DNA of 64,000 nucleotides from Vallitalea pronyensis (GTDB lineage: Bacteria > Bacillota > Clostridia > Lachnospirales > Vallitaleaceae). Shown one piece after another: positions 171-15,039 of this stretch. The notes under the pieces are model-generated. The model worked only from the letters and a program-made list of their open reading frames with translations, was not told the DNA's origin and did not search any database. Numbering within the stretch: the first letter of the stretch is position 1; each line of letters begins with the position of its first letter. A program made the position numbers and the translations under genes. Where the stretch lies: contig NZ_CP058649.1 in assembly GCF_018141445.1 (NCBI RefSeq), positions 3,987,001 to 4,051,000 of the forward strand, read 5' to 3'.

Positions 171-908
171 TTAATGTATGTGGCTCATAAAGTCTTTTAA
201 AAAATGATTAATACTTTTATATCTAGGTACAAATTTTGAATAATCACTTTGTTTAGTGTCAGAAATCCAAGCTACACTGATACCTAATGAAGAAGCTCCT
301 AAAACGTCCAACTCCCAACTATCTCCTACATAAAGGCAATTATTTATATCTACTTTTAATTCATCTATACATCTTTTATATATCTCAGGCGCAGGCTTTC
401 TTATTCCAATGTCAATTCCACATGTTAATACTTTAAAATAGTCTTGTATACCGGCTTTTTCAATTTTATTTTTTTGAAGGTTATAATCACCATTTGTACA
501 TATTGCCATCGGTATACCTGCTATATATAACTTTTTTAAGCATTCCCTAGTATATGTTTGAATGATTACATGATTATTCCGAAGCTCCGAATAAGTATTT
601 ATTAATTCATTAATTTGTTTGCTATTTAAATATATTTTTTTTCTTTTTAAGGTTTCTCTCCAGACAAAACTACGTATTTTATGGCTATCTCCTAATGGTT
701 TCAATATCTCATCATATCTATCCCATAAATTATTAGATACAAACTCATAACACTGTACCATCTCTGAAACATTGCAATTTCCTTCTGGCTTATATTTCTT
801 AACAATATACTTACATACATCTACTACAGAAAGATACCATCCTTTAGTATCTTCAATTAACGTATCATCAAGATCGAAGATAAGAGCTTTTATATTACTA
901 TATTTCAT
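171..908 (-). CDS. HAD-superfamily hydrolase (phosphatase-like)
   Basis: The protein has the HAD motifs in order: motif I FDLDDTL near the N-terminus, motif II around AICTNGD, the motif III lysine in RKPAPEIYKR, and motif IV YVGDSWELD. The region between motifs I and II forms a helical cap, as in the YjjG/phosphoglycolate-phosphatase type. Family knowledge gives a Mg-dependent phosphomonoesterase in the cytoplasm; the substrate is not visible. I chose the ATG at 908 because AGGTG lies at the right distance upstream; two earlier possible starts (917, 914) sit on that ribosome site. It overlaps the end of the propeller-kinase gene and is the last gene of the cluster, so it plausibly removes a phosphate late in that pathway, like the HAD-type histidinol-phosphatase in histidine synthesis. 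That role is inference. Confidence 0.85.
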   Translation of the reverse strand: MKYSNIKALIFDLDDTLIEDTKGWYLSVVDVCKYIVKKYKPEGNCNVSEMVQCYEFVSNNLWDRYDEILKPLGDSHKIRSFVWRETLKRKKIYLNSKQINELINTYSELRNNHVIIQTYTRECLKKLYIAGIPMAICTNGDYNLQKNKIEKAGIQDYFKVLTCGIDIGIRKPAPEIYKRCIDELKVDINNCLYVGDSWELDVLGASSLGISVAWISDTKQSDYSKFVPRYKSINHFLKDFMSHIH

Positions 909-2892
909 TATCATCACCTATTAATAGTTTAAAAAGTCTACTTGCGCAAGACAGCATAACTATACCTAAATCTCGTTGATAACTTTGACCATCTTTCCAA
1001 ATAGGTTCAAGCCTAAATATAAGTTTACTCATCACATAGGCTTGTACCCTTTCATAATTAACAGGAATATCCTTAAAATGTTCCTTAAGCCAAGTTGTAG
1101 TCAACAAATTCCTTAGTTCAATAGATATAAAATTGTAATTTACCTGTATTTCTTTTCGCTCATCACATATCTTTACAGATATGTTCTCAAAAGCTCCTAG
1201 ATGCTTAATTGCTGATCCAATAAATTTGGCAACTGAATAATCAATATCTAAGTAACCCGAGAATTCAAAATCCAACATTAAATAGTTTAAATCATCTGTT
1301 ACTATAAAGTTCTTAAAATGATTATCTCCACTAAAATAAGCTACCCATTTGGGATAATATGATAATATATTTCTAGCTGATTCAAATTCATAACACATAG
1401 GTCCCAAATCCTTTGTAGTATTATCTATAAGCCGATATGAGAATATTTTATCTTTTGAGTGCCTTATCACTTCCTGTAGCCATCCCATCAAAACATCTGG
1501 GGTCTGAAGAGAATAACTTATCCTTTCCTCCGAATACTTGATTATAGTTTTCTTCGTTAGTTTTACGAATTTATTTAAAATATTGTCCAATATAATGATA
1601 AATTTTTTTGAATTACTACTTGCATAAGATGCTAAGTTACTCCCCTTGATGTATGGCATTATTAAAAGTGGTTTTTGGTTAATGTATCTTAATGCCATTG
1701 GTACATGTGTAATGTATTTTTTTAGTTTAAGATACCCTCTATATTCATTTTCAACCCAAAAGCGAGACCGCCCAAGCTTTACTACTTTACTATCATTTTC
1801 TTTATCTGAAATCCTAAAAACAGGAGTCGAACTAGGTCTAATCTGCTTAATTTTTTTAGATATGTAAACATTATCGAAACTATTACTATCATTTTCTTTA
1901 CTTAAATACTTATGAGGTATATTTCTTATCTCCTTGTCAATATCTCTTAAAAAATTAATATCTGGTTTATAGCTTTTAGCTATTTTATTAGTATAATCAT
2001 TATTTATTTTTCCAAAATATAGTATGGACCATTCCCCTAGTCTATTTTCGCCTGAATAGTATAATTCGATGCTATTATCTATAGAAGAAACATAAAGACA
2101 TGGATAAAAAGCATATGCGTAGTCCAAAGCTTCTTTATCACCTCTAAAAGTAACCGGCCCTAGCTTTTCCCATCTATAACCGTTATCACTTGTTGCTAAC
2201 ATCACACACCTTGCCGTCCCTCCCCCATAAGCCATAATAAACTTATTACCATATTTAATAACGGATGGACAATCACATGCGTATTCATCTAACTCTCCTA
2301 AAGCCCCACAATCTAAAACAACACCTTTTTTAATCCATTCTATGCCATCTCTACTCACTGCATAATGGATTCTTCTATTATTACCATCTCTACCTGCATA
2401 CCATAAGTGAAAATAGCCATTATCATACAAAACTGATGGCAAATAAGTATGCTGGCAATCAGTAGTCATATCAGGGAAAATTGCTACTTGTGGTTCAGAC
2501 CATCTATCACCTTGTATTCTTCTAGTACTAACAAAAATAGACCAAGTACCATTATGCTCCTTACCACTAAACCAAATCCACTGGTTTAAGTCATTTTCTA
2601 TGAAGCATGCTCCCATAACATCTAAAAATTTTTTATGAAAATCAAAAGTATCATTTTGGTTAATCTCCCATTTATTATTAGAATCAAGTTGACAAATCCT
2701 TATCCTATTTTTTCCCCCTACATACCAACGTTCTACTAAGCTATTATCTCTATTAGATCTCCATAGTTTATCTTCAAAACACATATCTTTTCTAAGACCA
2801 TATGTTATAAGCATTTTAAGCTTCATATTAGATTCAAAAACGTACGGAGCAAATAGTATTGCTCCTTTTTCATGTAACAATTCACGTTTCAC
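898..2892 (-). CDS. Beta-propeller (glycosidase-like) fused to APH/choline-kinase-like phosphotransferase
   Basis: The 664-residue protein has two parts. Residues about 1-310 show repeated blades of the five-bladed propeller kind found in GH43/GH32/GH130-like proteins (for example HLWYAGRDGNNRRIHYAVS and the blade around FYPCLYVSS). Residues about 365-640 look like an aminoglycoside/choline kinase-type fold: SGDNHFKN at 521-528 stands for the HxDxxxxN catalytic loop, with a leading Ser instead of His, followed by the metal-binding LDFEF. It starts with GTG and overlaps the preceding gene by 11 bases, so translation is probably coupled. A small-molecule kinase joined to a sugar-binding propeller would fit phosphorylation of a glycosylated or sugar-like intermediate. 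The fusion is not one I recognise; no function is claimed beyond the folds. Confidence 0.7.
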   Translation of the reverse strand: MKRELLHEKGAILFAPYVFESNMKLKMLITYGLRKDMCFEDKLWRSNRDNSLVERWYVGGKNRIRICQLDSNNKWEINQNDTFDFHKKFLDVMGACFIENDLNQWIWFSGKEHNGTWSIFVSTRRIQGDRWSEPQVAIFPDMTTDCQHTYLPSVLYDNGYFHLWYAGRDGNNRRIHYAVSRDGIEWIKKGVVLDCGALGELDEYACDCPSVIKYGNKFIMAYGGGTARCVMLATSDNGYRWEKLGPVTFRGDKEALDYAYAFYPCLYVSSIDNSIELYYSGENRLGEWSILYFGKINNDYTNKIAKSYKPDINFLRDIDKEIRNIPHKYLSKENDSNSFDNVYISKKIKQIRPSSTPVFRISDKENDSKVVKLGRSRFWVENEYRGYLKLKKYITHVPMALRYINQKPLLIMPYIKGSNLASYASSNSKKFIIILDNILNKFVKLTKKTIIKYSEERISYSLQTPDVLMGWLQEVIRHSKDKIFSYRLIDNTTKDLGPMCYEFESARNILSYYPKWVAYFSGDNHFKNFIVTDDLNYLMLDFEFSGYLDIDYSVAKFIGSAIKHLGAFENISVKICDERKEIQVNYNFISIELRNLLTTTWLKEHFKDIPVNYERVQAYVMSKLIFRLEPIWKDGQSYQRDLGIVMLSCASRLFKLLIGDDNEI

Positions 2893-4324
2893 TGTTTTCT
2901 AACACCTCATTATCTAATATCTCATCTTCAAATCTTTCATATAGCATTCTCAGCAGTAAATCTGATCCATTTACTACAGAAAGATATTGTGTATTTGTTA
3001 TAGTTTTTTTATATTGCAGTCTTTTATTATATGCCCAATAACTTCTAGCAACCCCTAATCCCCCCCCAAGTTTCCTTGCCATTCTTTCAACCATATCAAG
3101 TCTTTGCTTTAACGTCATTCCATCTATCAGCATTTCATTTGGATGATTGTATACAGTACCTATATCAAATGTTAGCGGGGCAATACAAATTGAAGCGTTT
3201 GTCTCTCCTATACTATCAACTAACATTTTATGAGTCTTACCTGTAAAAATAGAATCATCAATATGAATTATTAAATCAAAGGGTAATATATGAATAGTTT
3301 CTAGAGAATCTAAGATATTATCAAATCTGTTCATCTCATCTTCATGAAAAGAAAACCAAACACGTTGAGTTTTTATTAAAGCTTTCTGCGATTCATTAAC
3401 CATACTTTTCCATATTGATCCTGTATGTATAGCACCAAATGCATTACTTAAAAGCATAATATTAGTATTTTTTTTGTTATTTAATGTTTGCAAAAATCTT
3501 TTCTCAAATGATGAAAGAACAATCCATAACTGATCTCCTTCTCTTACTGATCTCACCCATCCTTTTTCATGTTTCTTTCTTAAAAAACTCTCAACTTCAT
3601 TACAAAAATGAATAATTCTAGGGTCATTAAGAAATTTTTTAATAGTATTTATAGCTTTTGTTGGTTTTGGTAATCGCTTCTCCCTCCATATAAAATAAGA
3701 GTAGTTCGTCAGAACTTGAGCAATATTATCCATGTGAATATCCAGTACCTTGTCAAACCCATCTAGTCCTTCTACTGATAATTTGCATCTTTTTCTTTTT
3801 AATACCATATATGTCCAAGCTATCGAACAAAGATCATTAAAAATCCATTCTATAAAACTAATAGATGCAAGCCAATCATGGAAGGAAATCATTTTACAAG
3901 ATAAATCAAAATCCAATATATCCAAATACTCGTTATAGGTATATATTTTTTTTATAATACTTATCCAAAACTCATGAGGCTTAGGACAATTATCTGATAA
4001 GTACATGCAAGGATCCGCAGAATAATACTTATATCCCCTAAAATTAATGAATCCATTATACCATTTAGCTCTATCCTTAAAAAAAGCTTGCTGTGGCTTA
4101 CTTAATAAATTCCACTCTTCTTCTTTAATTCTGAAACCACCTACCTCATCAAAATACTTTCTAAGTGGCATACACACATGACTATAATCGATATAACTAT
4201 TTTTATGAAACGCTTCAACCCATTCTTGCTCTATTTCTCTTGTCGTTATTGCAATCTCCCGTCTCATGGCTTTCAATCTATCTAAAATCTCTTTACTCAA
4301 TTCCATTTCCGAGTTTTTATTCAT
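2882..4324 (-). CDS. Divergent phosphoribosyltransferase-like protein 1
   Basis: The 480-residue protein is not recognisable as a named family. Its C-terminal third carries a type I PRTase signature: a beta strand then IHIDDSIFTGKT at about 353-364, which matches the PRPP-binding loop (hydrophobic strand, two acids, TGxT). About 60 residues earlier is IMLLSNAFGAIHTGS, where PRTases have their first loop. The N-terminal 280 residues are helical and rich in Trp and Tyr, with no motif I know. Start and stop overlap both neighbours (ATGA at 4321-4324), so it belongs to a tightly coupled operon. The PRPP loop supports ribosyl transfer or a derived regulatory or binding role; the acceptor is unknown. 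Confidence 0.6.
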   Translation of the reverse strand: MNKNSEMELSKEILDRLKAMRREIAITTREIEQEWVEAFHKNSYIDYSHVCMPLRKYFDEVGGFRIKEEEWNLLSKPQQAFFKDRAKWYNGFINFRGYKYYSADPCMYLSDNCPKPHEFWISIIKKIYTYNEYLDILDFDLSCKMISFHDWLASISFIEWIFNDLCSIAWTYMVLKRKRCKLSVEGLDGFDKVLDIHMDNIAQVLTNYSYFIWREKRLPKPTKAINTIKKFLNDPRIIHFCNEVESFLRKKHEKGWVRSVREGDQLWIVLSSFEKRFLQTLNNKKNTNIMLLSNAFGAIHTGSIWKSMVNESQKALIKTQRVWFSFHEDEMNRFDNILDSLETIHILPFDLIIHIDDSIFTGKTHKMLVDSIGETNASICIAPLTFDIGTVYNHPNEMLIDGMTLKQRLDMVERMARKLGGGLGVARSYWAYNKRLQYKKTITNTQYLSVVNGSDLLLRMLYERFEDEILDNEVLENSET

Positions 4325-5409
4325 GATTCATCGCCATCAATCATTAGATTAGAACCCTCAATCATATATGCATCTATACTCAGTAAGTCCTTAAGCATAT
4401 TGTTTTCTATGTAATCCTGGTTTAACTTCCTTAGTCCAAGCCAATCATTGTAAAAATTTATATTAGTAATTATTGAGTCATCAAGAAGTTCTTCCAGCTC
4501 ATTTTCTGTTATCTGTCTAATTCTTTGTGTATTCCTTTCTTGGATCTTTAACTGAGGCAGGAATATTTTATCTAAAAATCCATAATTTTTTATTGAGCAA
4601 TCCGTTAACGTAGAAATTTCACTAGGCGTAAGCCAAACTTTCTCAACTTTTTTACTAGCTTCCTTTTCACCTAACTCGATTAACCCATTTAGGTATTCTT
4701 CTGTTAGTAATTTATGTTCTGTTAGTAATAGAGCTACGCCTCCAGCTCTGCTATGTATATCTCGTAATGACTCCAGTCCAACCGTCGAAATAATTGTTCC
4801 TACTCCAACAAAAGCTACACCAGGCCATCCGTATATTAATATTTTATTATTTACTGTGAGCGCCAATATTCTCTCGTTTGCAAGAAATTTTTTTATTCCC
4901 TTACCTTTTAAAACGTTTTGGAATACGGATGTAGTTTTTCCTGCTCCTTTACCTCCAAAAAAAATGTATGCTTTATCTTTAATCATAATACCCGATGAAT
5001 GAATTATGATTGCACCTCGGTTCAAAAGTCCTGAAATAAGTATTTGCCTTATTGCTCTGTATGTATCCATGAATAATCCTTGAATATTATCATTAACTAC
5101 CACTAGCTTCTTCTCTGAAGCTTGAATAATAAAGCTATCTGTATTACTATTCCAAAGAACATTTTTTTTCCCCAATTTAAATGAATAGAGTTGTTCATTA
5201 TACTCCCCTTTAATTGCAATCCCTAAATTTTTATCTTTGCATACCATTTTGTTTTTTTTGAGATGGGCGATTACCTCCCAAGTACAATTGGTTTCAGCAT
5301 CTCCAGCCTCTGGTACAAGATAGTCTCCGACATATCTTAGTAACTCATCTGAATTTGATTTAAGCAATACATAATCTAAATAATTTGAAAAAATCATTTT
5401 TTTTTCCAT
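4321..5409 (-). CDS. HPr kinase-like P-loop ATPase
   Basis: The 362-residue protein has a Walker A motif GGKGAGKT at 152-159, preceded by the sequence IIIHSSGIMIKDKAYIF. That arrangement (His, Ser-Gly, short turn, P-loop) is typical of HPr kinase/phosphorylase-like kinases. The N-terminal 140 residues resemble the lead-in domain of HprK-related proteins of biosynthetic gene clusters, not the DRTGG domain of true HprK. It starts at ATG 5409 with AGGAG upstream and overlaps the next gene by four bases. True HprK phosphorylates a Ser in HPr; related proteins in clusters are thought to phosphorylate peptides or small molecules. Substrate unknown here. Confidence 0.65.
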   Translation of the reverse strand: MEKKMIFSNYLDYVLLKSNSDELLRYVGDYLVPEAGDAETNCTWEVIAHLKKNKMVCKDKNLGIAIKGEYNEQLYSFKLGKKNVLWNSNTDSFIIQASEKKLVVVNDNIQGLFMDTYRAIRQILISGLLNRGAIIIHSSGIMIKDKAYIFFGGKGAGKTTSVFQNVLKGKGIKKFLANERILALTVNNKILIYGWPGVAFVGVGTIISTVGLESLRDIHSRAGGVALLLTEHKLLTEEYLNGLIELGEKEASKKVEKVWLTPSEISTLTDCSIKNYGFLDKIFLPQLKIQERNTQRIRQITENELEELLDDSIITNINFYNDWLGLRKLNQDYIENNMLKDLLSIDAYMIEGSNLMIDGDES

Positions 5410-5421
5410 TTTATAGCACTC

Positions 5422-6693
5422 CTAGGTTTTATTACGCATAAAATAATCAGATACTTTATTAAATGCTTTAATATACTCTTTAACAAGTGGTAAACTGTTC
5501 ATATTTGTAAAAGTAGGTAAGCTCAATCTATTTTCAAAATATTCTTTACTTCCTTCTAGTGGTTTATGTATTCTAGGTTTCCAAGTATCTTTTGCAAACT
5601 GTAAAGGAGCTTTCTTGTCTTGAAATATTGGAAATTCACTTAGTGGTCTAACTGACGGTCTATGAATCTCTAAACCCTCAGCTGACAAAATTTTTATATA
5701 TTCATCACAATTCATTAATCTATTATCTATAAACAGCTCATTGGGTACAAATTCTGGTTTATAACCATAGAAACTTCCCATAGTTACATATGACCTAATT
5801 GCAGGAGGGCGTATACCTTTAGCACGTCTTAACCCTTCACTAAGTATACCTAATAAATGATTGCGTTTTTCTATTATTTCATCTATTCTTAATAATTCAT
5901 GTTTAGCAATAACAGCAGCAATAGGATGTAATCTATACTTCAAGCCAAAACCTGTATGTGTAAAGTTTTTTAGATATGGATCCGTAACCTCTTTTTCACT
6001 TCGCCCTCTATAATGTCCAGTCAAACATGCTCTTTCATAATATAATTGATTGTTAGTGACTAATATTCCCCCTTCACCAGCTGAAATAGCCTTTGATGCT
6101 TGCATACTTATAATAGCAATGTCACCAAAAGTACCAACTTTTTCTCCTCTATACGTTGAACCAAAAGCATGTGAACAATCCTCAATTAACCTAATATCCT
6201 TCTCTATGCAAATCTGTAATATTTCGTCCATTTCTGCCGGATGTCCCCAAGTATGATTGATTACTATCGCCTTTGTCTTTTTTGTAATAGCTTCCCTTAG
6301 GGACTTAGGGTCAACATTTCCAGTATCAGGTTGTACATCAACAAGCACTGGTGAAAGTCCGCAATGAATTGCAGGTGTTATACTTGCATGAAATGTCACA
6401 TTCTGACAAATAATTTCAGAACCTAAAGGCAAATCTAAAGCTATATATGCCGAATGTAGCGCATTGGTTCCCGAGTTTGTCGTAAGAACATATTTTACAT
6501 TTAAATATTCACGTATTAAGTCTTCTAACTCTTCAATAATTCCCGTTCCATCTGCAATCGAAATTGGCTTGCCTTCCATTAGATATTGATAAACTGCTTC
6601 AATCCCTTCTTTACAAAGCTCAGGCCATCTAAAATGCGGTGAAGTATAGCTTACTGAAGGTTTCCCTCCATAAATTGCTAATTCATTTTTCAT
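5422..6693 (-). CDS. DegT/DnrJ/EryC1-type PLP aminotransferase
   Basis: This is a full-length sugar-aminotransferase-like enzyme. The N-terminus has TTNSGTNALHSAYIALDL, the cofactor phosphate site; RLIEDCSHAFGS holds the PLP-contacting Asp; SMQASKAISAGEGGI holds the Schiff-base Lys. The family transfers an amino group from Glu or Gln to keto-sugars or to other keto compounds. I chose the ATG at 6693 because GGAGG lies just before it, inside an earlier in-frame ATG at 6705. It is the first gene of the second half of the cluster: upstream is a 600-base gap with an IS110 remnant. In the cluster it could supply the amination step, as HisC does in histidine synthesis, or make an amino sugar. Confidence 0.9.
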   Translation of the reverse strand: MKNELAIYGGKPSVSYTSPHFRWPELCKEGIEAVYQYLMEGKPISIADGTGIIEELEDLIREYLNVKYVLTTNSGTNALHSAYIALDLPLGSEIICQNVTFHASITPAIHCGLSPVLVDVQPDTGNVDPKSLREAITKKTKAIVINHTWGHPAEMDEILQICIEKDIRLIEDCSHAFGSTYRGEKVGTFGDIAIISMQASKAISAGEGGILVTNNQLYYERACLTGHYRGRSEKEVTDPYLKNFTHTGFGLKYRLHPIAAVIAKHELLRIDEIIEKRNHLLGILSEGLRRAKGIRPPAIRSYVTMGSFYGYKPEFVPNELFIDNRLMNCDEYIKILSAEGLEIHRPSVRPLSEFPIFQDKKAPLQFAKDTWKPRIHKPLEGSKEYFENRLSLPTFTNMNSLPLVKEYIKAFNKVSDYFMRNKT

Positions 6694-6987
6694 ATTTACC
6701 TCCATTATGGCGTATTAACGCTGTCACAAATAACTTGTTTAAATGTTACCAACACCACCTATTTTTAGTTGAATTAAGTTGGAGATAGTAATATACTATA
6801 GAACACGAAGTGGTGAATGGTATTTTAACGCGCATATTTATATATGCTTCAAATCTATACAAACATAACTAATTGGGAATTTGAGCCCGCACACTTATCA
6901 TTGATATCATCTGATAGAGTGATTTAGCTTGATTGGCAGTCAATGTTATTATTTCATTTTGTTTTCCTCGAAGTAGGTCTCACATAT

Positions 6988-7092
6988 GTTAAACTTATTT
7001 ATCCTATCTGTTGTGGTGTTGATGTTCACAAAAAAACTATTGTTGCAAATATTGTCTTTACTGATCACAAAAAACCTATTAATGCCATTTGA
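6988..7092 (+). pseudogene. IS110-family transposase N-terminal remnant
   Basis: On the plus strand one frame reads YPICCGVDVHKKTIVANIV, the start of the DEDD catalytic domain of IS110-family transposases (the Asp of GVDVHK is the first catalytic acid). It ends at a stop at 7090-7092, and the preceding ATG is out of frame. Nothing more of the element is recognisable. It lies in the gap 6694-7314, otherwise without genes, between the aminotransferase gene and the HisA-like gene. The rest of the gap shows only AT-rich sequence. Confidence 0.7.
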
Positions 7093-7314
7093 AAACCATA
7101 TTCTTATTACATTATCATATGATTTAGAATGGTGAACGATTTAATGTTTAATTAGTTAGTTTGAAAATTCCTTAGATGAACGGTCCTCATACTTAAAGTA
7201 ATTTTACGCTTTCCTCCTTCTTATAATATGTTTATACATACACTATTTTATTAACAAATGAATGTGTGATCGTAACCTAAAAAGATAGTTTTGATTTCTA
7301 GTATAATCTCATTG

Positions 7315-8028
7315 TCATTCCAATCCAAGTTTTCCTTGCAAATATGCTCTGCCTACCGTAGGACATACGGATAAGTTCATAATTTTTATCATATCTTGCC
7401 AACTCATAAGGTTACCAGCATACCACCATTCTAGTTTTGGGTATTTTTCCCTTATTGATTCAATGGCACACCAATTAGGCTGAAGTCTCTTGGTGGAAGA
7501 TGCTATATCCACCGTTTGTATCTGACAGTTTCCCTTACATAAATCATATATCTGCTCTAGAACTATTTCTTTACTTATATTTGTTTTATTTGTAAAACCC
7601 TTAGTACATATCTTTTCATTATAAAAATCAATTGATATAATAAATAGTTCACTTTCAAAACTTCGAGAAAGTTCTTTAATATAGCTTGTGTTTACTCCAT
7701 CTTTATTAAATATTGCCGAACCTACTATAATACCTTTTGCACCTTTATTAAGCAAATTCTCCATTTCACTAAAAGATTTAACTCCACCCCCAACCCAAAA
7801 TTTATTAGGTCTTTGCTGCAAAAAATCAATAATTAACTTTTTTTGTGACTGTCGTCCTTGTGATCTGTCTATATCTATCAAACAACTAGGTACTGAATTA
7901 TCGGCCAACATATTAATGTCCTTAATAATATCCGACTCTTCCCTACCTATTATTTTTCCATCAGAAATATCAATATTAACTCTCCATTTTTTATTATCTA
8001 ACGCAAAACCTTTTGGTAATAATCTCAT
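7315..8028 (-). CDS. HisA-like (beta-alpha)8 barrel isomerase
   Basis: The 237-residue protein follows the HisA pattern. After about 15 extra residues, NIDISDGK matches the HisA start (AIDLxDGK) and keeps the first catalytic Asp (residue 20). LIDIDRSQG, the phosphate-binding WVGGGVKS and GIIVGSAIF follow, and ISIDFYNEK keeps the second catalytic Asp (134). HisA converts ProFAR to PRFAR by an Amadori rearrangement in histidine synthesis. The C-terminal barrel half (ASSTKRLQPNW, WWYAGNLMS) is diverged: a normal HisA has a Thr/Asp-Gly phosphate site and SGG there. The stop overlaps nothing; its start overlaps the end of the PRTase-like gene by four bases. Likely an Amadori-type isomerase acting on a related sugar-phosphate substrate. 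Confidence 0.75.
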   Translation of the reverse strand: MRLLPKGFALDNKKWRVNIDISDGKIIGREESDIIKDINMLADNSVPSCLIDIDRSQGRQSQKKLIIDFLQQRPNKFWVGGGVKSFSEMENLLNKGAKGIIVGSAIFNKDGVNTSYIKELSRSFESELFIISIDFYNEKICTKGFTNKTNISKEIVLEQIYDLCKGNCQIQTVDIASSTKRLQPNWCAIESIREKYPKLEWWYAGNLMSWQDMIKIMNLSVCPTVGRAYLQGKLGLE

Positions 8029-9365
8029 TTCGAATTCACCTTCTTTTTACAATTACATTCATCATAACAATCAAAATCATTGTAATTTTGTCTTGCATAG
8101 TATAACTCATTCTTCATTCTTTTGAGTTGTTGCTGGCTCCAATTTCCATAATCAGATGCAATCTTAAGATTTGACAGCATCTGGGATAAAGAATTTTCAT
8201 ATTTGCTAATTGTAGAACTATAATTAATATAATCCATATTACTCAAACATTTAATCAAGTATTCTTGTACTGAATGATGAAAATTCGATCTAAGACTTGG
8301 AAAATCTACTATACCAGATATATCATGGGTAGAACCACATTTTTTATATAAATGCCAAGCAGTCTCAGCGCTCCTTGAATAACCAATACCGTTTTTATTT
8401 TTAATCATATATTTACAGAAATTTAATGTTTTCCCATACCCAATATTATCGTCGATAATTAAAACGTTTTTATCTTGTATGGCACTGAATAAATCTCTTA
8501 TCATAGGCTGAGGAACAATTTTATTCCAACATATATTACCGTCATGTGAATAGAAATCAATATCAGATAAATCATGAAATCCTACTCTAACTAGTAACAT
8601 ATTTTGTTTATTAACGATATATTCGCTCCTCATCATTTCTTTAAAAGTTCTATAATAAATTGCCAATGTCAATGATCCATAAAGCGGGAATAGAATTGTA
8701 TCTATGCTATGTTCATGGATAATATAACTTTCATTATATATTATCTCATTTATTATTTTAGGCTTATTATCATATTCTCTGAACTGCCTAAAATAGTGAT
8801 TTCCTTCAACAAATTCATATATACTTGCAATAAAATCCCAGTCTACTTTTGCTGTATTTAAGCTACCAAAAAAAGGGTACATAACATGAAGATGACAGCT
8901 TGTAATATTTTCTATTTGTCTTATTAGCTTAGAACAGGTTAATAGTATTTTATTTTTATTGCATTTATAATTGTCAATGCAACTACACCACATGTTATAC
9001 CATACTGCAATTAATACATTAATGACATTCTCCAATAATGCATTTAACATATTTTGAAGACTAGGTTCATTCTTATAGCGGTCCATAACTTCTACAGTCA
9101 CTCTAACAAGTATATCAAAGTTTTTAAGAGCCAGGTTAATCTCATAATAAGGTCTTCCTCTACTCAATGAAAAATCTAAATTTAATTTTGGTAAAAAACA
9201 CTCAATAGCTTGTCTTTCTTTTTCATTATTTAGAAATAATTTCATTCTGCTTCCGTCAAATCTAAAAGCTCCTAAAGCATCATATTTGAGTCCTCCATTA
9301 CTATAATTGGTTATCATTTTCGCTATTTTGTATAATTCATCTTTTTTTATATCCATCCCCCCCAT
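8025..9365 (-). CDS. Divergent phosphoribosyltransferase-like protein 2
   Basis: The 446-residue protein has a PRTase-type PRPP loop, VLIIDDNIGYGKT (about 301-313), in which the usual TG is replaced by YG. TILFPLYGSLTLAIYYR earlier could be the first phosphate loop. The long N-terminal part (1-230) is helical, with no motif I recognise; a C-terminal Cys cluster (CYDECNC) could bind a metal. It shares the general layout of the other PRTase-like protein in this cluster (long helical N-part, C-terminal PRPP loop), so the two may be distant paralogues or partners. It lies between HisF-like and HisA-like genes and overlaps the latter. Reaction unknown. Confidence 0.55.
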   Translation of the reverse strand: MGGMDIKKDELYKIAKMITNYSNGGLKYDALGAFRFDGSRMKLFLNNEKERQAIECFLPKLNLDFSLSRGRPYYEINLALKNFDILVRVTVEVMDRYKNEPSLQNMLNALLENVINVLIAVWYNMWCSCIDNYKCNKNKILLTCSKLIRQIENITSCHLHVMYPFFGSLNTAKVDWDFIASIYEFVEGNHYFRQFREYDNKPKIINEIIYNESYIIHEHSIDTILFPLYGSLTLAIYYRTFKEMMRSEYIVNKQNMLLVRVGFHDLSDIDFYSHDGNICWNKIVPQPMIRDLFSAIQDKNVLIIDDNIGYGKTLNFCKYMIKNKNGIGYSRSAETAWHLYKKCGSTHDISGIVDFPSLRSNFHHSVQEYLIKCLSNMDYINYSSTISKYENSLSQMLSNLKIASDYGNWSQQQLKRMKNELYYARQNYNDFDCYDECNCKKKVNSK

Positions 9366-9482
9366 CTAATAGGAATATATTCATATGCAAAAATTGAATA
9401 AAATATATTCCGTTTGATCAATTTTAATCAGCCATAATATTATTTTATACATTAGAAGAATCTATTAATTGCAGTAATTTAA

Positions 9483-10292
9483 TTATCCAATATTGTAATC
9501 CATTATCCAAGGTCTAACAGAAATATTATGTTGAATAAGTTTTTCTTTTATCTCTTTCATAGAGTAATTTCTTTCAATTTTTGGAGAATAGAGCATAGAA
9601 CTAATGATAGCAGCCGAAGCTTCTGTATTCGAAAAAACATCCACTAGATGTTGTGGTGTTCCAGCCCCCCCAGATGCAATTACTGGAACATTGACGTTTC
9701 TACTAATCAAGGATGTGATTTCTATATCGTAACCAGCATGAGTCCCATCTTGGTCAATACTATTAACGCAAATTTCTCCAGCTCCAAGACCTTGTGCTTT
9801 CTTAGCCCACTCTACTGCATCCATACCAGTAAATACTCTAGCTCCATCAATTGCTATTTCATACCCACTTGGTATGCTAATAGTTTTTTTTACACGCTTA
9901 ACCTGCATACTAAGTACTATACACTGACTCCCAAATGCTAAAGCACCTTCCTTAATAATGTTAGGATTTCGTACTGCCATTGAATCAATACTTATTTTTT
10001 CAGCACCAGCTTTTAATACTTCATACATGTCATCAAGACTTTTTATCCCCCCCCCTACAGTAAAGGGAACAAATACTTGTTTTGCCACCTTTTTTACAGT
10101 GTCAATATCGATTTTTCTTTTCTCTGAACTTGCTGTTATGTCATAAAATATAATCTCATCAATTTGATCTTCATACATCTTGACAGCCATATTTTCTGCG
10201 CTACCAATATCAATATTGTTTTTAAACTTATGTGCTTTTGTAACCAAACCATTTCTTATATCAAAACATGCAATTAGTCTATTTGTTAGCAT
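9483..10292 (-). CDS. HisF-like imidazole-glycerol-phosphate synthase subunit
   Basis: The 269-residue protein is close to HisF along its length: RLIACFDIRNG keeps Asp11, followed by YDITASSEKRK, FTVGGGI, NSIDQDGTHAGYD and VIASGGAG, the last being the C-terminal phosphate site. HisF closes the imidazole ring using ammonia tunnelled from HisH. The residue at 130 is Gln (in SMQVKRV) where canonical HisF has the second catalytic Asp (IDAKRV). About 10 extra residues follow that site. The start overlaps the HisH stop by seven bases, the usual coupling of the two subunits. It may therefore act as an ammonia-using synthase on a different substrate; the WbuZ-like HisF paralogues of sugar amidation are a precedent for such use. 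Confidence 0.85.
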   Translation of the reverse strand: MLTNRLIACFDIRNGLVTKAHKFKNNIDIGSAENMAVKMYEDQIDEIIFYDITASSEKRKIDIDTVKKVAKQVFVPFTVGGGIKSLDDMYEVLKAGAEKISIDSMAVRNPNIIKEGALAFGSQCIVLSMQVKRVKKTISIPSGYEIAIDGARVFTGMDAVEWAKKAQGLGAGEICVNSIDQDGTHAGYDIEITSLISRNVNVPVIASGGAGTPQHLVDVFSNTEASAAIISSMLYSPKIERNYSMKEIKEKLIQHNISVRPWIMDYNIG

Positions 10293-10906
10293 AAGTCACC
10301 TCCGACTACTGCTGCAAAATTTTTCAAAAGTTGCAGCCCTATTAATCCACTCTTCTCAACATGAAATTGTGTTGCAAATATATTTTTGTGAGCAACCATC
10401 GTACAGAATTCTAAGCCATATTTTGTTCTACCCAAAATAATATCATTATTATTAGGAACAACATAATATGAATTGACAAAATAAAAAAACTCATTGCTAT
10501 TAATTTTTGATATAATTGGATGTTCATAATTGAATTTAACTCCATTCCAACCAATATGTGGTACACGTACCCTCGATTCTGGAAATCGTTTAACACATCC
10601 TCGCAACCAACCTAAACAGTTAGTATCTCCTTCCTCACTAAATTCAAAAAGTACTTGAAGACCAATACAAATACCCAAAAATGGCTTCCCTTCACCAACT
10701 ACCATTTCTTCCAGCTTTTCTAATATTTTCATACTCCTAAGGGATTCCATAGTAGCTTTTGCTGACCCCACTCCAGGTAATATAATACCAGATACTGATT
10801 TCATATCTTGTTCAGAAGTTATCAACTTAGAATCTATGTTAAGTTTATTCAGTGCATTTAGAACACTTGGTGCATTTCCAGCTTTATAATCTATGACTCC
10901 TATCAT
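10286..10906 (-). CDS. HisH-like glutamine amidotransferase subunit
   Basis: A class I glutamine amidotransferase of the HisH type, 206 residues, normal length. GICIGLQ holds the nucleophile Cys; the catalytic His and Glu are in FHVEKSG near the C-terminus; MIGVIDYKAGN and ILPGVGSA are typical of HisH. It releases ammonia from Gln and passes it to HisF. GGAAGGAG precedes the ATG. It is the first gene of the cluster; downstream overlap with the HisF-like gene supports a heterodimer. Because the canonical triad is intact, ammonia supply should work even though the HisF partner is altered. Confidence 0.9.
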   Translation of the reverse strand: MIGVIDYKAGNAPSVLNALNKLNIDSKLITSEQDMKSVSGIILPGVGSAKATMESLRSMKILEKLEEMVVGEGKPFLGICIGLQVLFEFSEEGDTNCLGWLRGCVKRFPESRVRVPHIGWNGVKFNYEHPIISKINSNEFFYFVNSYYVVPNNNDIILGRTKYGLEFCTMVAHKNIFATQFHVEKSGLIGLQLLKNFAAVVGGDLC

Positions 10907-12095: not shown

Positions 12096-12868
12096 TTAGA
12101 AATCGAAATATTCGAAATCTCTTCTATTATATTTTGACTCAAATATATTCTTAGCCAACCGATGACTTATCTCTTCTAACTTAGGCACCATACCTGAAAA
12201 ATTGTTGATGGCCTCAACTGTATTATCTTGTCCACCATGAACAACTTCATTCCGCTTTTGGTACATAATATCAATCCAAACATTTGGAATATTCCATTCA
12301 TTCTCTGAACCAAAATAATCTAGGAAAGATTGGTATATCATATTCTTAACACCTTTCTGAGTTCTGGCAGTTTGCGTATGATACGCCTTCCCTAGTATCT
12401 CTATAACATTCCAGTAAGAAAAAAACTTATCAAACGTGTTCTCTGTATTCTTTCCTTTTGAATACCAGCCAATTGCACGCAATAACTTCGGTTCTTCTAC
12501 CTCTAGCCGTCTTGCAATCTCAAATGATTCTATAAAATCAGCCTTCTCCAATCGTCTCCTAGTAAGATATTTTGCGTTCCTATTACCTTGTCCATTGCGT
12601 GTAAACAAACTAATTGCTATATCATTCTCAAAAGCTATAACATCTATCATATGTCCAAAGTAAACATACGCAACCGTCTCTGCTATCTCGCTAGTTTCCG
12701 CATATGCTGTAATTGTTGCTTGCAATCCCAGTTGAGAATCCTTCAACCGAATGTCAGAGTAAAACTGGTGATGGTCGAAACCTTTCTCACGCTTAAAACT
12801 TATACTGCTCTGAATTGTAATAGGACCTATTACGTTAAATCAACTTCCCAAACTCTTCTACCACTCAT
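12096..12868 (-). pseudogene. HEPN-like (Apea-type) gene with N-terminal frameshift
   Basis: A 216-residue ORF (12096-12746) runs from an internal Met. Near its end RNEVVHGG gives Rx4xH, the signature of HEPN domains, in the setting of Apea-like HEPN proteins. The proper start seems to be the ATG at 12866-12868, with GGAGG before it, which reads MSGRRVWEVDLT and stops; the +1 frame continues from NVIGPITIQSSISFKREK straight into the ORF. A single-base indel near 12,836-12,866 thus disrupts it. HEPN proteins are often RNases in toxin-antitoxin or defence systems; no partner gene is seen here. Confidence 0.65.
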
Positions 12869-13293: not shown

Positions 13294-14411
13294 CTATATG
13301 CAGTTTTTGGCAGTTGCTTCCATGTTAACATTGTAACAGGGTTGATAATTCAAGTCAAGATTTCTTGCATCAATAAATAAAACTTCATGCTTTCTGCTTC
13401 TGTAGCTAGGGTTATTTTCTTTGTTTCTATTAAGAATCCAAAGAGAAACTGGTATCCCTGTTGAATAGAATAACTTGTCAGGTAACGCAACGATTGCATC
13501 TATCAAATCTACTTCAAGTAAATTTTTTCTAATTTCACCCTCGTTAGAAGTATTTGAACTAAGAGAACCATTGGCAAGTACAATTCCTGCTGATCCATTT
13601 GGTCCTAAATGATATACCATATGCTGCAACCATGCATAGTTTGCATTTCCAGCTGGTGGTGTTCCATATCTCCAGCGAACATCATCCGTTAAATGATTTC
13701 CACCCCAATCACTAATATTAAAAGGTGGATTAGCAATTATATAATCAGCTTTTAATGTTTTATGCATATCGTTATGGAACGTATCTGCATGGTGATCTCC
13801 AAGGTTTGCATCAAGTCCTCTAATAGCAAGATTCATTTTACAAAGTTTCCATGTTGTTGAATTGATTTCTTGACCATAAATTGATAGGTTCTCTACCTTA
13901 CCTTGGTGCTCTTCTACGAACTTTTCACTTTGAACAAACATGCCACCTGATCCACAAGCTGGATCATAAGTTCTGCCTCGATATGGCTCTAACATTTCAA
14001 CTAAAGTCTTTAACAATACTTGTAGGAGTATAAAATTCTCCACCGCCTTTGCCTTCAGCTGAAGCAAACTGGCCTAGGAAATACTCATAAACTCGTCCCA
14101 GTAAATCTTTTTCACCGTTTTGGTGAAGCTTAATAGTGGAAATAAGATCCATTGTCCATGATAAAGCTCCATCTAGCTTCTTTAGGAACCCAGAAAATAT
14201 TTTCCGCTTCATATTCATCACGGTCTTCTTCAAAACCTTCACCTTCATCCATCAATGCTTCGTATTTAGTTTCAAATTTATCTGAGATATATTTTAAGAA
14301 TATAAGACCATGTACAACGTGCTTATATTCACTAGAATCCATGCTTCCTCTTAGTTTATCTGCTGCTTTCCATAGTGTTTCTTCAAATCCTATGTTTCCT
14401 GTTGTCGCCAT
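13294..14411 (-). pseudogene. hsdM: Decayed type I restriction-modification methylase (HsdM)
   Basis: Three frames give one HsdM in order. 14411 onwards: [20 protein letters not shown] to [13 protein letters not shown]. Next frame: [19 protein letters not shown] to [14 protein letters not shown]. Third frame: [32 protein letters not shown] (motif IV NPPF) to [11 protein letters not shown]. Between EARWS and DLIST about 50 residues normal for HsdM are missing, so there is a deletion as well as frame changes. It ends about 100 residues short, without hsdS or hsdR. HsdM adds N6-methyladenine in a type I complex; this one cannot be whole. Confidence 0.85.
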
Positions 14412-14429: not shown

Positions 14430-15039
14430 TTAATAATTATAATCATCAAAGATTTCAAAAATTTCTGTTTCAAATTCTTCTTGTACTTCGTCACTGTTTA
14501 TACTTTCAGGTAATACTTCAAGATAATGGGACAAAGCTTCAATTGACTTATGAAGAATGGATTCATGCTGAGCTTTCTTCATCAGTTCAACCATCAGCTT
14601 GAAGGTATCCATATATGGATTATTATCTACTATATCTATCGCTTCTTTTAAACCTTGTAACCAACTTTGCTTTTTCAATATCCCTTTCAATGATATTGAT
14701 TTCCTCTTTATCATATATAGGAATATCTACAAGGTCACTTACTGCTCCTGATTTGTATCGTTTATCATGTCTTGTGATTACAGGTTCTAAGTCATTCTTA
14801 AGTTTCTCCTTTTGTATTTCAAGCTTTTCAATCTCATCTAACTCTCTAGAGAAAACTTCTCGATCTATTACAAATAGTTCTTCCAATACTGGGAGATACT
14901 TTTTAGGAATATTTTGTCTTCTCTTAACCCACATGTTAATATTCTGTTTCTTAATTCCTAAGTGTTCAGCCAACTCAACGTGCTGCATATTATATAACCA
15001 AAGAATAAATTCTAATCCTATCAAGTATTCCCCTCCCAT
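14430..15039 (-). pseudogene. Frameshifted HTH-domain protein
   Basis: Two overlapping ORFs appear to be one gene. The first (14623-15039) starts MGGEYLIGLEFILWL and holds an N-terminal helix-turn-helix, VELAEHLGIKKQNINMWV, then a charged helical part. The second (14430-14714) continues the helical style with QGLKEAIDIVDNNPYMDTF. The switch of frame lies about 14,640-14,700. It precedes hsdM in the same direction, and HTH genes of this kind are often found at the head of type I R-M loci. Overlapping reading of two real proteins is less likely. Confidence 0.5.

Follow-up and report, generated by a model that had tools for sequence, protein, structure and literature searches.

Whether genes of the histidine pathway that lie outside a histidine operon still serve histidine synthesis or have been turned to another product is the question raised by a locus of Vallitalea pronyensis. 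The window analysed here (64,000 nucleotides; contig NZ_CP058649.1, positions 3,987,001 to 4,051,000 of the forward strand) carries, on its minus strand at positions 171-10906, nine open reading frames (ORFs) that nearly fill the interval. They encode a HisH (HisH2), a HisF-clade barrel (HisF2), a HisA-like protein (HisA'), two phosphoribosyltransferase (PRTase)-like proteins (PRT_A and PRT_B), a DegT aminotransferase, an HPr-kinase-like (HprK-like) protein, a propeller-APH protein and a HAD phosphatase. A sequence-only reading had taken them for a nine-gene cluster; the nine ORFs stand, but 15 more genes, including a third and clear PRTase (PRT_C), lie to the left. The locus is very likely a specialised-metabolite module. 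With a probability of approximately 0.6, it forms the right-hand part of a cluster for a specialised metabolite, up to 42 kb long, whose ten core protein types use recruited histidine-type chemistry to make a building block.

The core recurs on a Streptomyces plasmid

A collection of 72,556 plasmid records was searched by tblastn with PRT_A, PRT_B and the propeller-APH protein. The sole match of each was the Streptomyces sp. NBC_01462 record NZ_CP109471.1, in which ten protein types (HisH, HisF, HisA', PRT_A, PRT_B, PRT_C, a methyltransferase (MT), propeller-APH, HAD and DegT) were all found inside approximately 10.6 kb (364.7-375.3 kb; blastp E values of 1e-16 to 1e-108). Identity to the Streptomyces counterpart was 64% for HisF, 50% for HisH, 45% for DegT, 39% for MT, 32% for PRT_A (OG445_RS47150), 30% for HAD, 29% for both propeller-APH and PRT_C, and 28% for both HisA' and PRT_B (OG445_RS47170). 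Every other plasmid record was below 60% identity to HisF2, as were all phage HisF matches.

In the order of transcription, the Streptomyces genes are HisH-HisF and, divergently, DegT, PRT_B, PRT_C, MT-propeller-APH, HAD, PRT_A and HisA'. Five adjacencies are common to both loci in the same orientation: HisH-HisF, PRT_A-HisA', DegT-(HprK)-PRT_B, propeller-APH-HAD and PRT_C-MT. The sequence-only reading had proposed a search for other genomes with the set and a test of conserved order, and this plasmid provides one such case. Because the ten types recur with these five adjacencies, the module is real and very rare.

The Streptomyces locus differs in its divergent hisH-hisF pair and in the fusion of MT to propeller-APH; there, the methyltransferase, the propeller and the APH-like region form a single protein of 982 residues (L015 24081-27029), and the link among them is therefore supported. 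It also differs in lacking, among the 19 proteins compared (E 0.05), any match to 11 proteins of the V. pronyensis cluster, i.e., the HprK-like protein, the amino-acid kinase, NTase360, the ABC ATPase, two permeases, the NTP_transf_5 protein, the BtrK-type protein, the ATP-grasp protein and two unassigned proteins. Because only the ten types match on the plasmid, they were taken as the candidate core and the rest as local.

Further copies were sought in genomes outside the Actinomycetota. PRT_A was detected in 3 of 146 genomes, namely its own and two with short matches (21.4 and 18.5 bits) to the stretch of the phosphoribosyl pyrophosphate (PRPP) loop, so no second copy was obtained. The query protein A1 was found only in its own genome (1/392). 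The query protein A2 matched in 9 of 391 and 6 of 398 genomes, and all matches but its own were weak (17.6-21.4 bits), again giving no second copy; one of them, when inspected (L026), was a membrane protein resembling NuoN. Scans of genome contigs with PRT_B and with a PRT_A alignment, and of viral contigs with A1, A5 and A2, returned nothing, which is a weak negative since short near-exact peptides are needed for a match. PRT_A and HisF2 were present in none of 20 same-genus or same-family genomes.

Genes of the locus inside the window

At five of the eight gene junctions the genes overlap by 4-20 bases, in agreement with the many overlaps noted earlier, and the remaining three junctions are gaps of 12, 117 and 609 bases. 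The glutaminase subunit HisH2 (10286-10906; this and all following genes are on the minus strand) was assigned clearly (TIGR01855, E 3e-62, above the family cut-off), and its Cys and His/Glu motifs (GICIG and QFHVEK) are intact. Its gene overlaps by 7 bases that of HisF2 (9483-10292), which is clear by Pfam and scores 290.3 bits against TIGR00735, slightly below the curated cut-off of 294.55. HisF2 keeps Asp11 and Lys19, and has Gln in place of Asp130 and Asp in place of Asn103; the loss of the second catalytic Asp had been correctly recognised. After a gap of 117 bases follows PRT_A (8025-9365), a PRTase-like protein with a long N-terminal region and the motif VLIIDDNIGYGKT. Its match to PF00156 (E 0.017, 14.8 bits) is below the cut-off of 26.3 bits, as is that of its Streptomyces homologue (2e-4, 21.0 bits). 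HisA' (7315-8028) is a real but remote HisA relative (PF00977, E 1.5e-16), part of the early barrel being absent from the alignment. Three of its Asp residues align with conserved Asp of six HisA proteins, and we take them to be HisA positions 8, 127 and 169. The labels HisH, HisF-like and HisA-like can therefore be retained, the last for a distant relative.

No gene was assigned in the next 609 bases (6706-7314). They contain a small ORF (6943-7092) whose motif we take to be the start of an IS110-type transposase; Pfam gives it no match. The DegT/DnrJ/EryC1-type pyridoxal phosphate aminotransferase (5422-6705) and the HAD phosphatase (171-917), the last gene inside the window before the cluster runs on leftward, are clear family matches, as had been claimed. 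Other earlier labels proved weaker than claimed. The HPr-kinase-related P-loop protein (4321-5409) has a partial match of 27 bits against a cut-off of 200; PRT_A falls below its family cut-off, as noted; and PRT_B (2882-4324), a long protein, has no PRTase match in Pfam and is labelled by its PRPP-loop-like motif HIDDSIFTGKTH. A single-sequence fold of PRT_B had a mean pLDDT of 35 and was discarded. In the propeller-APH protein (898-2892), a GH32/GH130-like propeller (GH32N match, 4e-5) precedes an APH-like kinase region recognised by motifs read by eye.

Neither hisG, hisD, hisC, hisB nor hisI/E was matched among the cluster proteins scanned, which confirms the absence of hisG, hisI/E, hisB and hisD asserted before; these genes were found in a separate operon. 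A HisG homologue and an SAICAR synthetase were likewise not matched in the Pfam and NCBIfam scans of the cluster proteins. The NCBIfam scan covered 19 proteins, i.e., all but one permease, the decarboxylase-carrier fusion, two peptide synthetases and their phosphopantetheinyl transferase, all described below.

Beyond the right end of the cluster, an N6 DNA methylase (hsdM-type) gene lies in two overlapping frames (13294-14248), beside a MauJ/HEPN-like protein (12096-12746) and a YdaS-like protein (14623-15039). The suggestion that the flanks hold mobile-element remains agrees with this hsdM-type gene in two frames but not with the single short ORF scanned with Pfam, in which no transposase was found and beyond which no wider search was made.

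The cluster continues to the left of the window

The window edge cuts the cluster, and the 15 further same-strand genes span 31 kb (loci L009 and L037). In total, 24 ORFs were taken as genes, all on the minus strand, over 42.1 kb (G000:C1:3955829-3997906). PRT_C is a clear PRTase (PF00156, E 2e-13, 50.8 bits against a cut-off of 26.3). The other leftward genes encode MT, an MfnE-like protein of the amino-acid-kinase fold (98 bits against a cut-off of 300), a protein of 360 residues without a family match that was read as a nucleotidyltransferase (NTase360), an ABC ATPase with two proteins read as its permeases, an NTP_transf_5 protein, a BtrK-like decarboxylase fused to a PP-binding carrier domain, an ATP-grasp protein whose gene adjoins that of the decarboxylase, and two proteins without an assigned family. 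A 367-residue protein first thought to be BtrH-like had no match in Pfam or NCBIfam and no credible PDB match, and was left unassigned. Two non-ribosomal peptide synthetases (NRPSs) of 2824 and 2336 residues, with condensation, adenylation and carrier domains, and a phosphopantetheinyl transferase form the leftmost end (L037). The 2824-residue NRPS (L037 10741-19215) ends in a fusion of reductase, B12-binding and radical SAM domains. Motif reading of the NRPS code gave three adenylation domains, against four suggested by the Pfam stretches; one reading looks wrong, and the code was not used.

Butirosin biosynthesis may involve a ribosylation, on which no paper was found in the openly licensed literature. 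The nearest PDB entries to the decarboxylase are BtrK (2j66 and 7ru7; E 8e-96), and the best diaminopimelate decarboxylase is 36 orders behind (2e-59). With BtrK as its closest solved relative and a carrier partner, the protein has the marks of a predicted BtrK-type decarboxylase acting on a glutamyl-acyl carrier protein (ACP). As far as the available text on BtrK, a glutamyl-ACP decarboxylase, goes (PMC7857480), the resemblance to butirosin lies in the BtrK-like decarboxylase, the fused carrier domain and the adjacent ATP-grasp gene. The cluster differs in that no butirosin core gene appeared among the Pfam matches, an NRPS is nearby and the BtrK-type protein has no counterpart among the compared Streptomyces proteins.

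Because the cluster adjoins NRPS and BtrK-type genes, specialised metabolism fits. GC content is 27.4% in L009, 31.3% in the nine-gene part and 35.3% in the whole window. The sequence-only reading is upheld in part: the set is something other than a his operon, recurs in another phylum, has a GC content below that of the window, was not found in the 20 close genomes and has NRPS and BtrK-type neighbours.

HisH2-HisF2 and histidine synthesis

The genome has a separate his operon at C1:3296-3303 kb (L011) with intact hisG, hisD, hisC, hisB, hisH, hisA and hisIE, of which hisG, hisD, hisC, hisB and hisIE were confirmed by family matches. Therefore, the HisH, HisF and HisA-like copies of the cluster are extra. 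In the assembly, the hisF of this operon is spread over two frames near C1:3301540 (L011, approximately 5530-5560), a frameshift that may be genuine or an assembly error. The expectation that normal copies of all three genes would lie elsewhere thus holds for hisA and hisH but not for hisF as assembled. If the frameshift is real, HisF2 is the sole intact HisF, which is part of what the sequence-only reading had named as its refutation, hisA and hisH being duplicated regardless.

Nine HisF2 sequences were compared with 32 ordinary HisF, and 22 clade-specific positions were found. All nine have Gln130, where all 32 ordinary HisF have Asp, and Asp103, where ordinary HisF have Asn (31) or Thr (1). 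When 13 sequences from 12 genomes of the order were added, position 103 was Asp in 22 of 22 and position 130 was Gln in 21 and Arg in one; the sequences come from the window and from loci L073-L079 and L094-L106, and the 22 include a second copy in genome G106 (L102; Asn11/Asp19) that looks degenerate. The clade is monophyletic, with a support of 1.0 in the smaller tree and 0.93 in the larger. Of 390 other class genomes, 7 carry a member of the clade (64-81% identity; next matches at most 50%), as do 20 of the 255 other order genomes (54-77% identity; E <= 1e-85), and none of the HisF2 of 10 relatives passed the TIGR00735 cut-off. In the available text of PMC11350729, Asp11 and Asp130 are the general acid and the general base of HisF. 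HisF2 resembles the Thermotoga maritima-type enzyme described there in Asp11, Lys19, the glycine-rich phosphate loops and pairing with HisH, and differs in having Gln in place of the general base Asp130 and Asp in place of Asn103. Because Asp is swapped between the two positions, the sequences suggest that the catalytic base has been relocated from 130 to 103.

It is rather unlikely, though among the better of the alternatives, that HisH2-HisF2 is the strain's working histidine imidazole glycerol phosphate (IGP) synthase, transferred in and placed by chance next to a natural-product cluster formed by the remaining genes. In its favour, HisF2 was the sole HisF in all ten of the order genomes searched, out of 20 carriers (E <= 1e-30; completeness was 90% or more and contamination 5% or less in seven). 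Its gene was in or adjoining the his operon in 5 of 12 order genomes (G061, G099, G203, G144 and G156). In G144 (L104), a hisZ-like gene just below the cut-off and hisG, D, C, B and A, all read by family, are followed by hisH2 and hisF2; in each of the other four, one his gene (hisG or hisD) was family-confirmed and the others were read by eye. In G182, hisF2 is approximately 4 kb from the his operon, whose hisG was confirmed by family. Every his gene that had been named by eye and was then submitted to a family scan kept its name. HisH2 was the only HisH in 7 of 7 class genomes (E <= 1e-15; one of them, G423, only 76% complete), and family matches place hisG, D, B, A and IE in G757 (99% complete) without hisH or hisF between them. 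The frameshifted hisF of V. pronyensis and the 117-base gap after hisF2 point the same way.

The plain reading of this context is that HisH2-HisF2 serves the order as a putative variant IGP synthase of histidine synthesis, and a HisF without the described general base apparently makes histidine in these relatives. The absent Asp130 therefore does not show new chemistry, because it marks a Clostridia clade and the variant is the sole HisF of relatives with his operons; the earlier argument from its loss to a non-histidine reaction was dropped.

Other observations sit badly with a plain histidine enzyme. Five of the seven class genomes also hold an ordinary HisF, and in 6 of the 12 genomes from the order the surroundings of hisF2 showed no his genes, some of these contigs being only 6-12 kb. 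At four of the seven class loci, the pair adjoins glutamine synthetase III (L076, L078 and L079) or a GltD-type protein (L074). As regards V. pronyensis, the Streptomyces plasmid pairs hisH2-hisF2 with the same core, its HisF being the only plasmid one to reach 60% identity, and the strain's own hisH and hisA are intact; both argue against a chance neighbour.

Near the pair or in its wider neighbourhood, genes of glutamine nitrogen metabolism were seen at L074, L076, L078, L079, L081, L096 and L100: glutamine synthetase III, GltD-type, SIS/amidotransferase (GlmS-like), SAICAR synthetase, PurL-like, carbamoyl-phosphate synthase, and argininosuccinate synthase and lyase. In G757, glutamine synthetase III is on the same contig, approximately 20 kb from the pair. 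In G220 (L097 1787-5684), a gene for an 834-residue methyl-accepting chemotaxis protein lies between hisH2 and hisF2.

Discussion

The recurrence of the core favours recruited histidine-type chemistry, and an imidazole- or ribosyl-derived product is plausible, as had been proposed earlier. A possible, if doubtful, course of reactions, tentative in each reaction and in their order, is as follows. One or more of the PRTases would transfer phosphoribosyl from PRPP onto an amine or amidine, and the HisA-like barrel would convert the aminoaldose to a 1-amino-ketose (Amadori rearrangement); such a conversion, an aldose-ketose rearrangement acting on a phosphoribosyl amine, is a natural guess because HisA' keeps the three Asp. 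HisH2-HisF2 would supply glutamine nitrogen and close an imidazole-type ring, or aminate the ketose; since the pair accompanies this core in both phyla, the pathway presumably draws on its ammonia or ring chemistry. DegT would then transaminate a ketone, the HAD phosphatase would take off phosphate, and the methyltransferase and the propeller-APH protein would decorate or protect the product. In V. pronyensis, the block would probably be joined to a chain from the BtrK-type decarboxylase-ACP, the ATP-grasp ligase and the reductase-ending NRPS. The kinase and a Streptomyces GNAT protein may act in self-protection.

Several points weigh against recruitment as set out here. HisA' lacks an evident supply of its usual substrate, since the cluster yielded neither a hisG- nor a hisI-type gene. 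PRT_A and PRT_B are weakly supported as PRTases, and PRT_A, PRT_B and PRT_C have no detectable relationship to one another apart from a short motif. HisH2-HisF2, which by context works in histidine synthesis in relatives, could do so here. The NRPS genes are preceded by gaps of 742 and 1092 bases, and no condensation domain was found on the Streptomyces plasmid; they may therefore be a separate cluster. Because the core is known from two copies, it is uncertain which of its genes are essential.

PRTases commonly act on bases. An alternative that is likewise improbable is that HisH2-HisF2 is a precursor-supply copy giving canonical IGP and 5-aminoimidazole-4-carboxamide ribonucleotide (AICAR), and that the PRTases build the product from AICAR, ZMP or a purine. 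This would agree with the variants being, to judge by context, apparently functional IGP synthases, and nucleoside antibiotic clusters contain HisG and SAICAR synthetase homologues (PMC13055916, available text). However, no hisG, hisI or hisE copy that would raise the flux was found in the cluster, and HisA' is too remote for a simple duplicate. A sugar modification of the WbuXYZ/AglZ kind, with HisH-HisF ammonia passed to an N-acetyl sugar amidotransferase (the sequence-only reading had mentioned an amidated sugar), is very improbable: the pair does occur with a sugar-type DegT aminotransferase and HisF2 scores 234 bits with TIGR03572 (WbuZ), but this is under the cut-off of 299.7 and under the HisF score, and a WbuX-type amidotransferase was neither matched in the NCBIfam scan of 19 cluster proteins nor named in the Streptomyces annotation.

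Recruitment of HisA and HisG homologues is already in print, and a pathway with HisA' and HisH2-HisF2 would be a variation on that theme. According to the available text of PMC13055916, AdeK of the adechlorin cluster is a PriA/HisA homologue, and AdeC/AdeL, as well as PenA of pentostatin, are HisG homologues. The likeness is that specialised metabolism has taken over a barrel of the histidine pathway, together with phosphoribosyl enzymes, and that a housekeeping copy is present as well. The difference is that HisA and HisG homologues occur there with SAICAR synthetase, whereas HisA', HisH, HisF, three PRTase-like proteins and DegT occur here; "HisF" and "HisH" do not appear in that available text. 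HisA, HisF and HisH are absent from the text of the review PMC12648386, and HisA and HisF from that of PMC8724604. In the openly licensed literature, subscription journals being outside the scope, no matching cluster was found by title or abstract for HisA, HisF or HisH in biosynthetic clusters.

Tentatively, the PRTases, HisA', HisH2-HisF2, DegT, HAD, MT and APH may form a portable ring-building unit, distributed from Clostridia to Streptomyces, that makes a new class of metabolite; its HisF clade would have the base moved from 130 to 103 and would also make histidine in relatives, and the block would be NRPS-loaded in V. pronyensis. The core predicts a type of metabolite and defines a set of ten genes for expression in Streptomyces. 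The HisF2 clade, in turn, opens a test of whether Asp130 is truly required in HisF or may be replaced by Asp103 in natural enzymes that apparently make histidine.

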